From Verrucomicrobiales bacterium (GTDB taxonomy: Bacteria; Verrucomicrobiota; Verrucomicrobiia; Verrucomicrobiales; DEV007), in NCBI GenBank assembly GCA_002698785.1, contig PAAG01000049.1, positions 1-64,000 of the forward strand: a stretch of 64,000 nucleotides of DNA, given 5' to 3'. The notes beneath the pieces were generated by a model. It was given only the letters and a program-made list of their open reading frames with translations, searched no databases and was not told the origin of the DNA. Positions 26,358 to 33,865 of the stretch are shown piece after piece (within the stretch, counting starts at the first letter, position 1; every line of letters starts with the position of its first letter). Made by a program: the position numbers and the translations under genes.

Positions 26358-28223
26358 CTACTCATGCGCCAGCGGATTCGCCATCTTCTCAGGGCTGAGT
26401 AAATTGTCGAGTTGGGTCTTTGAGATCCAGCCCTTCTCAAGAGCAAGGTCGTACACACTGCGATCTGTCGCGAGAGCCTCCTTCGCAATCGCGGCCGACT
26501 TCTCGTAACCCAAGATCGGATTCAGCGCAGTGATAATCCCTATCGAGTTCTTCACGTAACTCTCGCACCTCTCCCTGTTTGCTGAAATTCCGTTGATGCA
26601 TCGAGTGGAGAGGACGACAGCCGCGTTCTTCAGTAGCATCAAACTACTGAGAAGATTATAGGTCATGATGGGCTCGGCCATATTGAGTTCGAACTCACTT
26701 GCCTCCGCCGCCATCGATACGGTCAGATCCGACCCGATGATCTGGTAGCAAATCTGGTTGACCACCTCTGGTATTACGGGATTCACCTTGCCTGGCATGA
26801 TTGAGGACCCCGGCTGAAGCGGTGGCAAATTGATCTCCGCCAACCCGCACCTGGGCCCCGAAGATGCCCACCGGAGGTCATTGCAAATCTTCGAAATCTG
26901 GATCGCCGTTGTTTTCAAAGCCGCGCTCATTTCAGCGAAGTCTCCGGCGTCCTGCGTTGCCTCGACCAAGTTCGGAGCGAGCTTTACATGCAACCCGGTC
27001 AGTTCGTTGATCTTTCTCGTGCAGAGGGCCGCATAACCCTTCGGACTGTTTAATCCCGTGCCGATCGCAGTCGCCCCCATGTTGATGATCAACAGCTCCT
27101 CCGAGACGCGGTTCAAACGCCGGATGCCATCATCAACCATGACGGCGTACGCAGCGAACTCCTGCCCGAGAGTCATCGGAACAGCATCCTGGTTCTCTGT
27201 TCTCCCCATCTTGATGACATCGGAAAACTCCTCCGCCTTTTTCTCAAACGATCGCTTCAACACTTTCAGTGCAGAAGTCGTTTCGTGTATAGCAAATACC
27301 ACCGCCACTTTTACCGCCGTTGGGTAGGCGTCGTTCGTCGACTGAGAACGGTTCACGTGGTCATTCGGATGGCAGTATTGGTAGTCACCTTTCTTGTGCC
27401 CCATGACTTCAAGAGCAAGGTTGGCGATCACTTCGTTAGCATTCATGTTAGATGAAGTCCCTGCTCCTCCCTGGACCATATCGACCGCAAACTGATCGTG
27501 CAACTCTCCGTTCAAAATGCGGTCACAAGCTACACAGATAGCCTCCGAAATCTTGGGATCCAAAACTCCCAGAATCGAGTTCGAGATAGCGGCCGCTTTC
27601 TTCACGTAAGCGAATGCATTCACCAAATGTTGAAAGTGTGAGATTCGTATTCCCGAGAACTGGAAATTCTCCATCGCTCGGGTCGTCTGCACCCCATAGT
27701 AGTGTGCGTTTGAGATCTCCCGGGTTCCTAGAGAATCCTGTTCCGTCCGGTAATCGGTAATGTCACTCCGTGACATCTCCTGGTGTAAAAGCAGTTCGGT
27801 CGTTTCTCGAAGCCGGAAACTGATCCGCCTCGCTGCTCTTGCAACCATCCGGTAAAACAGATCGGGTTTCTCCTCACGAAACGCTTCGATCTTTGCCCGG
27901 GGAATGACCCATACCTCTGTATTCTCCAGAGCAAACCCTGAGACACTGTGAGCAAGATCGTCGATGAAAATACTCTCCCCGATCACAGCCCCTTCTTTCA
28001 AAACCGCGATAGTGACATGCCTGCCCGCCAATCCCCTCTGAAGATCGATCTTGCCCTCCAGGACAATACCGAACCACCGGCGGGGTGCGGATTCATGAAA
28101 AAGATACTCACCCTTTGGGAAAGTCAGTTTCTCTCCGTGAGCAGCAAATTTGACGAGTTCTTCCGCAGACACACCCATGTCTTCGGCGACCCGATGAATC
28201 AGTTCGCGAGTAATTTCCATCAT
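26358..28223 (-). CDS. aspA: Aspartate ammonia-lyase fused to an N-terminal cyclic-nucleotide-binding domain
   Basis: 621 residues, about 150 longer than ordinary aspartase. Residues 25-140 are a cNMP-binding (CRP-like) domain with FPKGEYLFHESAP and the phosphate-binding cassette GAVIGESIFIDD; the cassette keeps G82-E83 but has AHSVSGFAL where Arg is usual, so cAMP binding is uncertain. Residues 155-621 are the aspartase/fumarase fold with GGAGTSSNMNANEV, NRSQSTNDAYPTA and the GSSIMPGKVNP loop (472-482) that carries the catalytic Ser. It should interconvert aspartate and fumarate plus ammonia, possibly under nucleotide or other ligand control. The fusion is continuous with no frameshift. Confidence 0.93.
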   Translation of the reverse strand: MMEITRELIHRVAEDMGVSAEELVKFAAHGEKLTFPKGEYLFHESAPRRWFGIVLEGKIDLQRGLAGRHVTIAVLKEGAVIGESIFIDDLAHSVSGFALENTEVWVIPRAKIEAFREEKPDLFYRMVARAARRISFRLRETTELLLHQEMSRSDITDYRTEQDSLGTREISNAHYYGVQTTRAMENFQFSGIRISHFQHLVNAFAYVKKAAAISNSILGVLDPKISEAICVACDRILNGELHDQFAVDMVQGGAGTSSNMNANEVIANLALEVMGHKKGDYQYCHPNDHVNRSQSTNDAYPTAVKVAVVFAIHETTSALKVLKRSFEKKAEEFSDVIKMGRTENQDAVPMTLGQEFAAYAVMVDDGIRRLNRVSEELLIINMGATAIGTGLNSPKGYAALCTRKINELTGLHVKLAPNLVEATQDAGDFAEMSAALKTTAIQISKICNDLRWASSGPRCGLAEINLPPLQPGSSIMPGKVNPVIPEVVNQICYQIIGSDLTVSMAAEASEFELNMAEPIMTYNLLSSLMLLKNAAVVLSTRCINGISANRERCESYVKNSIGIITALNPILGYEKSAAIAKEALATDRSVYDLALEKGWISKTQLDNLLSPEKMANPLAHE

Positions 28224-31720: not shown

Positions 31721-33865
31721 TCAGTTTGTCGCCAGCGTCTCGCAGCCTTTGATGTCGAGCTTGCCTGAGGCAAGAATCGGTATCTCCTCGACGTCGACTA
31801 CCTTCTTCGGCACCCAGAGGGCGGGAATTCCGTCCTCGAGGAGCTTTGCTCTCAGTTCCTGAAGGTCGATGTCAGGGTCTGAACTCAAAAGGATCAGTGC
31901 CTCCCCTTTCGCTTCGTCCGGTACTCCTACCACTGCAATCGTGCGCTCGTCGTCCGTATGGCCGAGAGCCTTGTTAATGACATCCTCCACTGTTTCGTGA
32001 GGCACCATCTCACCACCGATCTTCGAGAAGCGGGAAAGCCTGCCCTCAATGTAAAGGAAACCGTCTTCATCCAAGCGCCCAATGTCGCCTGTCATGAACC
32101 AGCCGTTTTTTATGACAGCTTCAGTTTTCTCGGGCTGATTCAGATATCCTTCGAAGACGTTCGCGCCACGGAGCCAGATCATACCTGAGCTATGAACAGG
32201 TAACGGCTCATGAGTCTCTGGATCGGTAATGCGAACGGCAATACCGGGCAAAAGAAGACCCACCGAGCCAAACCGGCGGTTGGGAACTACAGGGATGCGA
32301 TCATCCGGATCCACCTCCGGATCCGGGAGGTTCACGTTGGTGGCTGGCGATGTCTCAGTTAACCCGTATCCCTCCAGAACGGGCTTATCGAATCGCTTCT
32401 CGAAACTGTCCGCGACTTTCTTGGGTAGCTTCTCGGCACCGGTGATAACCAACTTGGCGCTGGCCAGCTGTTCTTTCGTTGCCTTACGCAGATAGCCACG
32501 AAGGAAGGTCGGAGTGGTCAGGATCAAACTGACCGAATATTTCTCGATCAGCTCTGCCAGCGTACCCACTTCCAGGGGACTCGGATAGGTCACCACACTG
32601 ACACCCTCGATCATCGGGTACCAGAGAGTCACGGTGCAGCCGAAGCTGTGAAACAAAGGAAGACAGCCGAGGATCTTGTCGTCCGACTTCATATCGATAC
32701 GGGCACCAAACTGATTCACATTCGCGAGCATGTTCCGGTGGGAAAGGACCACACCCTTCGGGTCTCCGGAGCTTCCACTGGTAAACAGGAGCACCGCTTC
32801 GTCATGCCCGCCTTTCTTGGAAAGCTTTAGCATTGCTCGGAGCATCCCGACCGACATCACCTTTGAAAGCACCAGCCAGAGGCCAATTCGTTTTTTCACA
32901 CCGGGAAGGATCCGGTCGATCATCAACAATTGGCGATTCGGCGGCCAGTTGAACGAACTCATTTTCCGAACAAATGGATCTGCCGTGATGTACTTATCCA
33001 GCCCGGCCTGCTCGATGCACGACTCGATCGCCTTCTCTCCGGCAGTGAAATTGAGGTTCACCGGAATCTTTCCGGCTAAGAGAACAGCTGCATTCGCAAG
33101 AAAGCCTCCTTTTCCTGGGGGTAAGATAATCCCCACTCGTGGTTTCGTAGTTTCCTTTCGAATGATCTTTGCCAGAACAATCGCGGCGGCAAGAAGCTTA
33201 TCGAAACGAAGATCTGAATGATCCAGACCGTCAATGATCTGAGCGGACTTCCCATGCCGCTTCAACCCTTTGAGAATCTCATAGGCCAAATTACTGCGAA
33301 AAAGAGGCCTATTCTCATACGCCGCTTCTGACGCGATCAGAAGATTCTCCGTGAAATTGGCGAGGTTCGATGCCTCACGTCGTAGAGGCTCCCCAAAGGA
33401 CAAGACAATTCGCTCTACATCGGTGCGGTTTTCCACACTGAGCGCAGATTCTTCTGGATGATCGACAAACAGAGGAAGAACCGGTGCCCCCGCGCTTGTT
33501 AAAAACTTCAATATCTCGGAAGGCACTTCAACCACTTGTCCTGATCGCGTGTGGGCCAAACCCGGGATAAAAATCGCCACGGCGTCATCCGCGAGGCATT
33601 GGTGCAATTCCTTTTTGAACACGTCCTTCGCCCCTTCCTCCGAAGAAAACTCAAGAGCCTCGGTATCTTCTTTCTCAAGATGGGCCTGCAATAGCGGATC
33701 GTAGTCCAATCCCCTTTCGATCAAATAGACGAGCCTACGACCGATCAGCTTCTTCTCGAGATGCAGCAGATCTTGAAAAGAGAGACGATTAGCGATAACG
33801 AGAACGCCGCCTGATGGGATATTCGATTCCCCGTATACTTCGAGCTTGTCGTGGAGACTGGCCAT
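31721..33865 (-). CDS. Aas-like acyl-AMP ligase with degenerate acyltransferase domain
   Basis: 714 residues, the length of the E. coli bifunctional Aas. Residues 10-200 correspond to a PlsC-type acyltransferase, but motif I reads NRLSFQD with R27 in place of the catalytic His of H-x4-D, and motif III reads FIPGLAHTRSG instead of FPEGTRSxxG, so this half is probably inactive. Residues 210-714 form an AMP-binding ligase with LLFTSGSSGDPKGVV, GYGLTETSPATN and WFMTGDIGRLDEDGF. It probably activates a fatty acid for phospholipid repair or uptake. Divergent from the symporter genes. Confidence 0.86.
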   Translation of the reverse strand: MASLHDKLEVYGESNIPSGGVLVIANRLSFQDLLHLEKKLIGRRLVYLIERGLDYDPLLQAHLEKEDTEALEFSSEEGAKDVFKKELHQCLADDAVAIFIPGLAHTRSGQVVEVPSEILKFLTSAGAPVLPLFVDHPEESALSVENRTDVERIVLSFGEPLRREASNLANFTENLLIASEAAYENRPLFRSNLAYEILKGLKRHGKSAQIIDGLDHSDLRFDKLLAAAIVLAKIIRKETTKPRVGIILPPGKGGFLANAAVLLAGKIPVNLNFTAGEKAIESCIEQAGLDKYITADPFVRKMSSFNWPPNRQLLMIDRILPGVKKRIGLWLVLSKVMSVGMLRAMLKLSKKGGHDEAVLLFTSGSSGDPKGVVLSHRNMLANVNQFGARIDMKSDDKILGCLPLFHSFGCTVTLWYPMIEGVSVVTYPSPLEVGTLAELIEKYSVSLILTTPTFLRGYLRKATKEQLASAKLVITGAEKLPKKVADSFEKRFDKPVLEGYGLTETSPATNVNLPDPEVDPDDRIPVVPNRRFGSVGLLLPGIAVRITDPETHEPLPVHSSGMIWLRGANVFEGYLNQPEKTEAVIKNGWFMTGDIGRLDEDGFLYIEGRLSRFSKIGGEMVPHETVEDVINKALGHTDDERTIAVVGVPDEAKGEALILLSSDPDIDLQELRAKLLEDGIPALWVPKKVVDVEEIPILASGKLDIKGCETLATN

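Follow-up and report, generated by a model that had tools for sequence, protein, structure and literature searches.

An aspartase-type lyase joined to a cyclic-nucleotide-binding domain with an altered cassette: a candidate ligand-gated enzyme found under ten bacterial phylum labels

Aspartase stands at the meeting point of nitrogen release and fumarate supply, and we know of no aspartase that carries a dedicated small-molecule sensor domain. What, then, is to be made of a gene that appears to encode such an enzyme? The stretch of DNA analysed here (the window: 64,000 nucleotides of contig PAAG01000049.1 from a Verrucomicrobiales bacterium) holds on its minus strand, at 26358-28223, a single reading frame of 621 amino acids, free of internal stops, in which a CRP-like cyclic-nucleotide-binding domain (CNBD) precedes an aspartase-type lyase. 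The original prediction for this locus proposed that the two form one protein, that the phosphate-binding cassette of the sensor lacks its usual Arg and may not accept cAMP, and that the enzyme would tie its ligand to the balance of aspartate and fumarate. A ligand-gated aspartase is the reading that we favour, at a little under an even chance; if gated, some small molecule would switch a central metabolic reaction. Both aspartases and CNBDs fused to enzymes are familiar kinds of protein; a literature search for an aspartase joined with a CNBD found no paper.

It is clear that the two halves belong to one gene, as had been proposed. Pfam models match the protein at residues 34-117 (cNMP_binding, PF00027, 53.6 bits against a cut-off of 27.5), 169-497 (Lyase_1, 310.5 bits against 27) and 563-615 (FumaraseC_C, 77.9 bits against 32.5), and the same three models match each of the 31 members of the family alignment that were scanned (E 0.001). 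A whole-protein search of 95 genomes gave full-length matches in 21 of 32 genomes of the same genus, in two of 25 of the same family (one match divided between two contigs) and in three of 37 of the same order. Scanning the pattern GRTENQDA[AITVM]P as DNA over 84,980 species genomes returned 114 loci, at 104 of which the family CNBD profile matches the same open reading frame (ORF), with only the second half of the domain present at one of these (L149); six of the remaining ten are cut at the edge of the locus, and four with readable upstream DNA lack the domain. Because full-length matches recur within the genus and the fusion recurs at 104 loci of the scan, it is neither chance nor an assembly error.

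The fused loci of the scan fall, by NCBI names, under ten phylum labels: Thermodesulfobacteriota (46), Verrucomicrobiota (40), Myxococcota (six, from metagenome-assembled genomes titled Deltaproteobacteria, a label that is perhaps wrong), Pseudomonadota and Planctomycetota (three each) and Sumerlaeota, Krumholzibacteriota, Actinomycetota, Chloroflexota and Acidobacteriota (one each), with one locus unassigned. The fusion thus extends beyond the Planctomycetota, Verrucomicrobiota and Chlamydiota (PVC), where it was initially placed, and the thermodesulfobacterial share is the largest. In broader samples the fusion is rare, occurring at the set E-values in five genomes beyond the window's own among 387 of its phylum, and in four of 297 from the phylum of Desulfosarcina. 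In Desulfosarcina alkanivorans (genome G464, locus L053) the CNBD-aspartase is accompanied by a rich cyclic-nucleotide repertoire, with 17 matches to class III cyclases and 25 to CNBDs in the one genome. In the trees Cohaesibacter (Pseudomonadota) stands beside Desulfobacter, Propionivibrio among rows titled Deltaproteobacteria, and Halomonas is paired with Humibacillus; this nesting across phyla suggests lateral transfer of the CNBD-aspartase. Plasmid-borne aspartases that seemed to share the N-terminal extension, with tblastn matches running from query residue 104 on, were discarded, the extended matches that were opened (H1 and H11) being plain aspartase genes of 1428 base pairs (bp) by annotation; a further match that is not extended (H2) lies in a gene of 1449 bp.

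Table 1. Positions of the fusion gene and its parts in the window
Feature	Position	Strand	Basis or remark
CNBD-aspartase fusion gene, 621 aa	26358..28223	(-)	start probably Met2 at 28220
Cyclic-nucleotide-binding (CRP-like) domain, residues 34-117	27873..28124	(-)	Pfam PF00027; AlphaFold2; CRP-family fold matches
beta2-beta3 loop ESAPRRW, residues 44-50	28074..28094	(-)	Arg48 aligned with Gly of 'EGDPGD' in 2pqq
Modified phosphate-binding cassette, residues 82-95	27939..27980	(-)	Glu83 and His92 each 92/92
Predicted long C-helix (120-151) and linker into lyase, residues 120-157	27753..27866	(-)	model; predicted local distance difference test (pLDDT) <50 at 147-155
Aspartase-type lyase domain, residues 158-617	26373..27752	(-)	Pfam, NCBIfam, alignment
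Active-site motif GRTENQDAVP, residues 340-349	27177..27206	(-)	Glu343 = AspB His188 / E. coli Gln191
Substrate (SS) loop GSSIMPGKVNP, residues 472-482, intact	26778..26810	(-)	alignment to AspB
SEFELNM, residues 509-515	26679..26699	(-)	Glu510 = Gln355 of AspB; block co-varying with Glu343
Trp452	26868..26870	(-)	Leu in 36/40 non-TEN rows; same co-varying block

The sensor half is a member of the CNBD superfamily by its Pfam score and by a confidently predicted fold. An AlphaFold2 model of residues 1-155 has a mean pLDDT of 91 and retains the cassette helix (83-86), so that no collapsed pocket, which would have spoken against ligand control, has been seen so far; the full-length model averages 81.7, its C-helix being followed by a stretch of low confidence just ahead of the lyase hairpin. 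The structures nearest to the modelled domain are those of the CRP family (for GlxR with cAMP, Z 16.7, root-mean-square deviation 3.1, 145 residues aligned). The fusion shares with CRP/FNR-type domains such as T. thermophilus CAP (4ev0), GlxR (4cyd) and 2pqq its predicted fold, the position of the cassette and the cassette Glu, but has His in place of the cassette Arg, Arg in place of the loop Gly and an enzyme in place of the DNA-binding domain. The cassette reads GESIFIDDLAHSVSG and, as anticipated, keeps Gly-Glu and lacks the usual Arg; thus the Glu of a canonical cAMP site is present (Glu83), the Arg (Arg209 of PKA) is absent, with His92 there instead, and the beta2-beta3 Gly (Gly169 of PKA) is also absent, Arg48 occupying that place, in the loop that faces the cassette, in 88 of 92 aligned fused proteins. 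Glu83, His92, Pro47, Gly78 and Arg137 are each found in 92 of 92.

How distinctive this arrangement is can be judged against 28 distinct control CNBDs from three genomes (five more control loci, too low-scoring to align, were dropped). At the place of His92 the controls have Arg in 13 and His in two (L207 and L213), and at that of Arg48 they have Gly in six and Arg in none. According to the available part of PMC2246266 (Kannan et al. 2007), the cassette Arg co-evolved with the Gly of the beta2-beta3 loop; this argument is weakened here because only four of the 13 Arg-type controls have that Gly. The missing Gly is on its own a weak argument, and it is His92 and Arg48 together that form a distinctive pair. 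His92 is not unique to the fusions, an idea set aside in view of the two controls and of a further fused protein (L215) with Tyr in its place. The ratio of nonsynonymous to synonymous substitution rates over the CNBD is 0.018-0.131 in five of eight species pairs, those with estimable synonymous divergence, the other three being saturated, and by this measure the domain is under purifying selection. Because of that selection and of the confident model, we read the site as a maintained, re-specialised pocket, not a decayed cAMP site.

The lyase half belongs to the aspartase/fumarase superfamily, with both Pfam models above their cut-offs and the SS-loop pattern GSSxMPxKxNP present, and it aligns over its whole length with known aspartases (phmmer 490-574 bits). 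It passes the NCBIfam aspartate ammonia-lyase subfamily model PRK12273 (709 bits, cut-off 510) and falls 1.8 bits short of the AspA equivalog TIGR00839 (679.4 against a cut-off of 681.2), which leaves it outside that equivalog; the same 679.4 bits stand far ahead of the 495 for fumC_II. Comparison with AspA of E. coli (1jsw), AspB of Bacillus sp. YM55-1 (1j3u/3r6v) and 6wng shows a shared end-to-end lyase and SS loop, and ten of twelve mapped AspB residues (T101, S140, T141, N142, T187, S318, S319, M321, K324 and N326) are identical in 97 of 97 fused rows that carry the TEN form of the active-site motif. To this extent the sequence bears out the original description of an otherwise complete aspartase. 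The description fails at the other two positions, 343 and 344: where AspB has His188 and E. coli AspA Gln191, the fusion has neither, but Glu343, and AspB position 189 corresponds to Asn344, so that Glu-Asn replaces the His/Gln-Leu of the known enzymes. The invariance of TEN among loci of the genome scan carries no meaning, those loci having been picked by that motif. We take FumC Glu331 to be the partner of His188. In the available text of PMC11744663, an AspB engineering study, His188 and Asn142 form part of the carboxylate pocket and also touch the amine.

This altered active site, a feature absent from the original prediction, does not stand alone. With Glu343 co-vary Glu510, Trp452 and Met515 (each 97/97), Gln442 (95/97) and Ser509 (91/97), of which Glu510, Trp452, Gln442 and others form a subfamily signature that, like Glu343-Asn344, separates the fusion from AspA and AspB; among 40 non-TEN rows Glu510 occurs in one, Trp452 in three, and Met515, Gln442 and Ser509 in none. 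Glu512 is not specific, being found in 35 of the 40 non-TEN rows and in AspB too. Glu343 with Glu510 would put extra acid groups near the substrate, alongside the usual Glu512, and may alter the pH dependence, metal requirement, affinity or substrate of the enzyme. Two unfused lyases (L178 and L184, with GRTEMQ and GRTELQ) show that Glu at the place of His188 arose outside the TEN clade too.

The surroundings of the gene bear on its chemistry. Among loci with at least 600 bp of upstream DNA (n=93), 42 are preceded on the same strand by a gene for a DcuA/DcuB-like C4-dicarboxylate transporter, which ends at most 400 bp upstream (Pfam check on one representative, 315 bits); an earlier clustering of ORFs had placed the transporter at 38 of the same 93. 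It lies upstream in 26 of 39 loci of Thermodesulfobacteriota and in seven of 35 of Verrucomicrobiota. A sodium:dicarboxylate symporter gene (Pfam) and, by reading of the sequences, genes resembling those for amino-acid-binding proteins and fumarate reductase/succinate dehydrogenase lie near a few loci. In E. coli, too, aspA and dcuA are neighbours. Because the transporter gene recurs upstream, the context supports aspartate/fumarate chemistry and with it the metabolic role first proposed. The three other Lyase_1 matches in the window's genome are best assigned to fumarase (fumC_II 602 bits, under the cut-off), argininosuccinate lyase and adenylosuccinate lyase, and on these matches the fusion is the only aspartase-like gene found there.

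How might such a protein work? A small molecule would bind the N-terminal CRP-like domain, with Glu83 contacting ribose, His92 replacing the phosphate Arg and Arg48 on the opposite side; binding would move the C-helix and the linker that leads directly into the lyase, and this movement would raise or lower lyase activity. The C-terminal domain would interconvert aspartate and fumarate plus ammonia, the usual His/Gln contact being taken over by Glu343 and its co-varying block. The ligand is probably something other than cAMP, as had been suspected from the cassette: His stands for Arg in every aligned fusion, Arg lies in the opposite loop, and no class I or class III cyclase was found in two genomes that have both the fusion and the motif. 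With Glu83 invariant and the phosphate-binding position altered throughout, the likeliest class of ligand would be nucleotides or nucleosides that contain ribose.

Several observations weigh against this account, and they bear on what the sensor recognizes, if anything, as well as on the reaction. Of the 16 genomes tested, in one of which the TEN enzyme is unfused, 13 contain class III cyclase domains, which keeps cAMP among the candidates; the window's own genome has 10 matches as well as canonical Arg-type CNBDs, and genome G690, whose sole CNBD is a fused one of the TQ type (with TQL in place of TEN), has two. Together with the invariant Glu83 and with a predicted fold near cAMP-bound GlxR and M. 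tuberculosis CRP, these matches would suit an aspartase gated by cAMP or cGMP, in which His92, with Arg48, still holds the cyclic phosphate at an affinity weaker or more dependent on pH than that of canonical domains. The replacement of Arg by His throughout makes such gating decidedly unlikely, as does the result that neither class III nor class I cyclases were found in G469 (Cohaesibacter) and G471 (Halomonas), both with fused TEN enzymes, other classes not having been searched and genome completeness not being known, or in G092 and G309, which belong to the window's order and carry a fused TQ-type enzyme, again with other classes not searched; in G092 the fused CNBD is the only one found. 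The CNBD is also less strongly conserved, with a mean commonest-residue frequency of 0.60 where the lyase has 0.79, and four TEN enzymes lack it, so the altered active site does not need a CNBD. Both facts would be expected of a ligand-free structural part acting in oligomerisation through the C-helix or in docking of a partner; the C-helices of CRP-family proteins dimerise, and the long helix predicted here runs into the lyase and carries the invariant Arg137. Even so, a structural role is unlikely, given that most invariant residues (Glu83, His92, Pro47 and Arg48) lie in the cassette and its facing loop and are a better fit to a binding site. A heme or gas sensor is very improbable. Its His92 would bind heme like the His of CooA, and CO, NO, O2 or redox state would gate the aspartase in anaerobes, which the Thermodesulfobacteriota, with their 46 loci, largely are. 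CooA has no need of the cassette Glu that is invariant in the fusions; initiator Met2 aside, none of the remaining Cys, His and Met positions in the CNBD is conserved to 93% (the next, His43, is His in 73 of 92), and the His-bearing controls L207 and L213 show that this residue also occurs in CNBDs outside the fusions.

The remaining objections concern the reaction itself. Glu beside the substrate carboxylate could weaken aspartate binding; PRK12273 fails to separate aspartase from fumarase, since the fumarase-like lyase of the same genome also passes (576 bits); no transporter gene was found at any of the four unfused TEN loci with readable upstream DNA, and no DcuA/DcuB match in the window's own genome. 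A lyase with a changed substrate, in which Glu343, Glu510 and Glu512 together form an acidic site that accepts a different amine or a metal and the protein is no aspartase, would accommodate the narrow miss of the aspA cut-off and the joint change of Glu343, Asn344, Glu510 and Trp452, as well as the loss of the AspB residue that forms part of the carboxylate pocket and touches the amine (PMC11744663, available text). It is quite improbable, however, in view of the ten unchanged active-site residues and the dicarboxylate transporter context; Glu512, moreover, is already common outside the TEN enzymes, and Glu at the place of 343 is shared by the unfused TEM and TEL lyases. Taken at its widest, the ligand-gated aspartase would be one spread over many phyla, partly by lateral transfer, and switched through the rebuilt pocket of Arg48, Glu83 and His92 by a ligand other than a cyclic nucleotide (an energy-reporting nucleoside or nucleotide, or a heme-bound gas), with its catalytic centre retuned to the acidic Glu343, Glu510 and Glu512 and with post-translational gating of fumarate/aspartate exchange, largely in anaerobes; in this full form the proposal is doubtful.

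Parallels with known sensors are instructive. In the mycobacterial acetyltransferase Pat/KATmt, which is canonically cAMP-gated, a CNBD likewise lies ahead of an enzyme domain, though the enzyme differs; the NCBIfam model ActPatMycb56 matches the fusion weakly. The kinetoplastid PKA regulatory subunits, gated by nucleosides, have likewise replaced the phosphate Arg and retain ligand control according to the available part of PMC10959531, but they carry an extra cassette Glu at PKA Ala202, where the fusion (position 85) has Ala, Leu or Val in 76 of 92. CooA, a heme-based CO sensor, likewise has a His where the cassette Arg would stand in the structure, and in the part of PMC2246266 available this His, at the position of PKA Arg209, coordinates heme; the fusion differs in keeping the cassette Glu and in having a lyase in place of the C-terminal DNA-binding helix-turn-helix. 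That paper also surveys the partners of CNBDs, and the word 'lyase' is absent from the same available part. The family offers a clean test case: it has one conserved pocket that departs from the cAMP rule in a defined way, and close relatives lacking the domain can serve as controls. It would show what a CNBD senses once the phosphate Arg has become an invariant His. Hosts with named strains include Desulfobacter, Desulfogranum, Chthoniobacter and Haloferula, and the aspartase assay, at 240 nm, is simple.

How the altered active site and the fusion are related in descent is a separate matter. In the whole-protein searches, which involve no selection by motif, TEN was found in 27 of 30 fused loci and in no unfused locus (n=35), after five loci lacking a recognisable motif had been dropped; adding L215, which came from a CNBD search, makes this 27 of 31. 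TEN lyases without a CNBD and with readable upstream DNA (L070, L110, L134 and L138), together with fused enzymes that have TQL (L032, L034, L165 and L215), rule out that the fusion caused the motif. Both trees place L138, with support, on a branch outside the fused TEN rows, so the TEN motif may predate the fusion. For L070 the larger, quick tree gives no resolved position, and the careful one groups it with two fused rows, without a support mark; L110, which lies elsewhere in the trees, is by that position independent. L134, a TEN lyase without a CNBD, is nested within fused rows of Verrucomicrobiota and is probably a secondary loss of the domain. A single clade of TEN and TQ-fused rows was not rejected by the approximately unbiased (AU) test (p 0.32 with L032 and L034, 0.060 with L165, 0.28 with all three). 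Scored with the family profile, the TQ-fused CNBDs reach 53-70 bits and those of fused TEN proteins 68-225 (median 201), and in the window's genome generic CNBDs score up to 66; these scores do not place the TQ-fused domains in the same CNBD family. L215, from genome G005 of the window's genus, is a fused CNBD-aspartase with GRTQLQDAVP and, as noted, Tyr at the cassette Arg place; because it is of the TQL type, that genus holds both kinds of CNBD-aspartase.

Some details of the locus and its neighbours may be added. Translation probably starts at Met2, one residue after the start of the ORF, because Met stands at this place in 86 of 92 aligned rows and a residue precedes it in just three. The fusion gene is flanked in the window by an alpha/beta hydrolase gene and, on its other side, by a divergent Gfo/Idh oxidoreductase gene. 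Elsewhere a small protein that matches no Pfam model (representative L093_-2), and whose hydrophobic start hints at export, is encoded two genes upstream of the fusion in 15 loci (L093, L064, L066, L071 and others) and downstream in one. Farther along the window an ORF at 31721-33865, on the minus strand, joins an AMP-binding ligase domain to an N-terminal acyltransferase-like stretch that scores under the Pfam cut-off, in an Aas-like arrangement.

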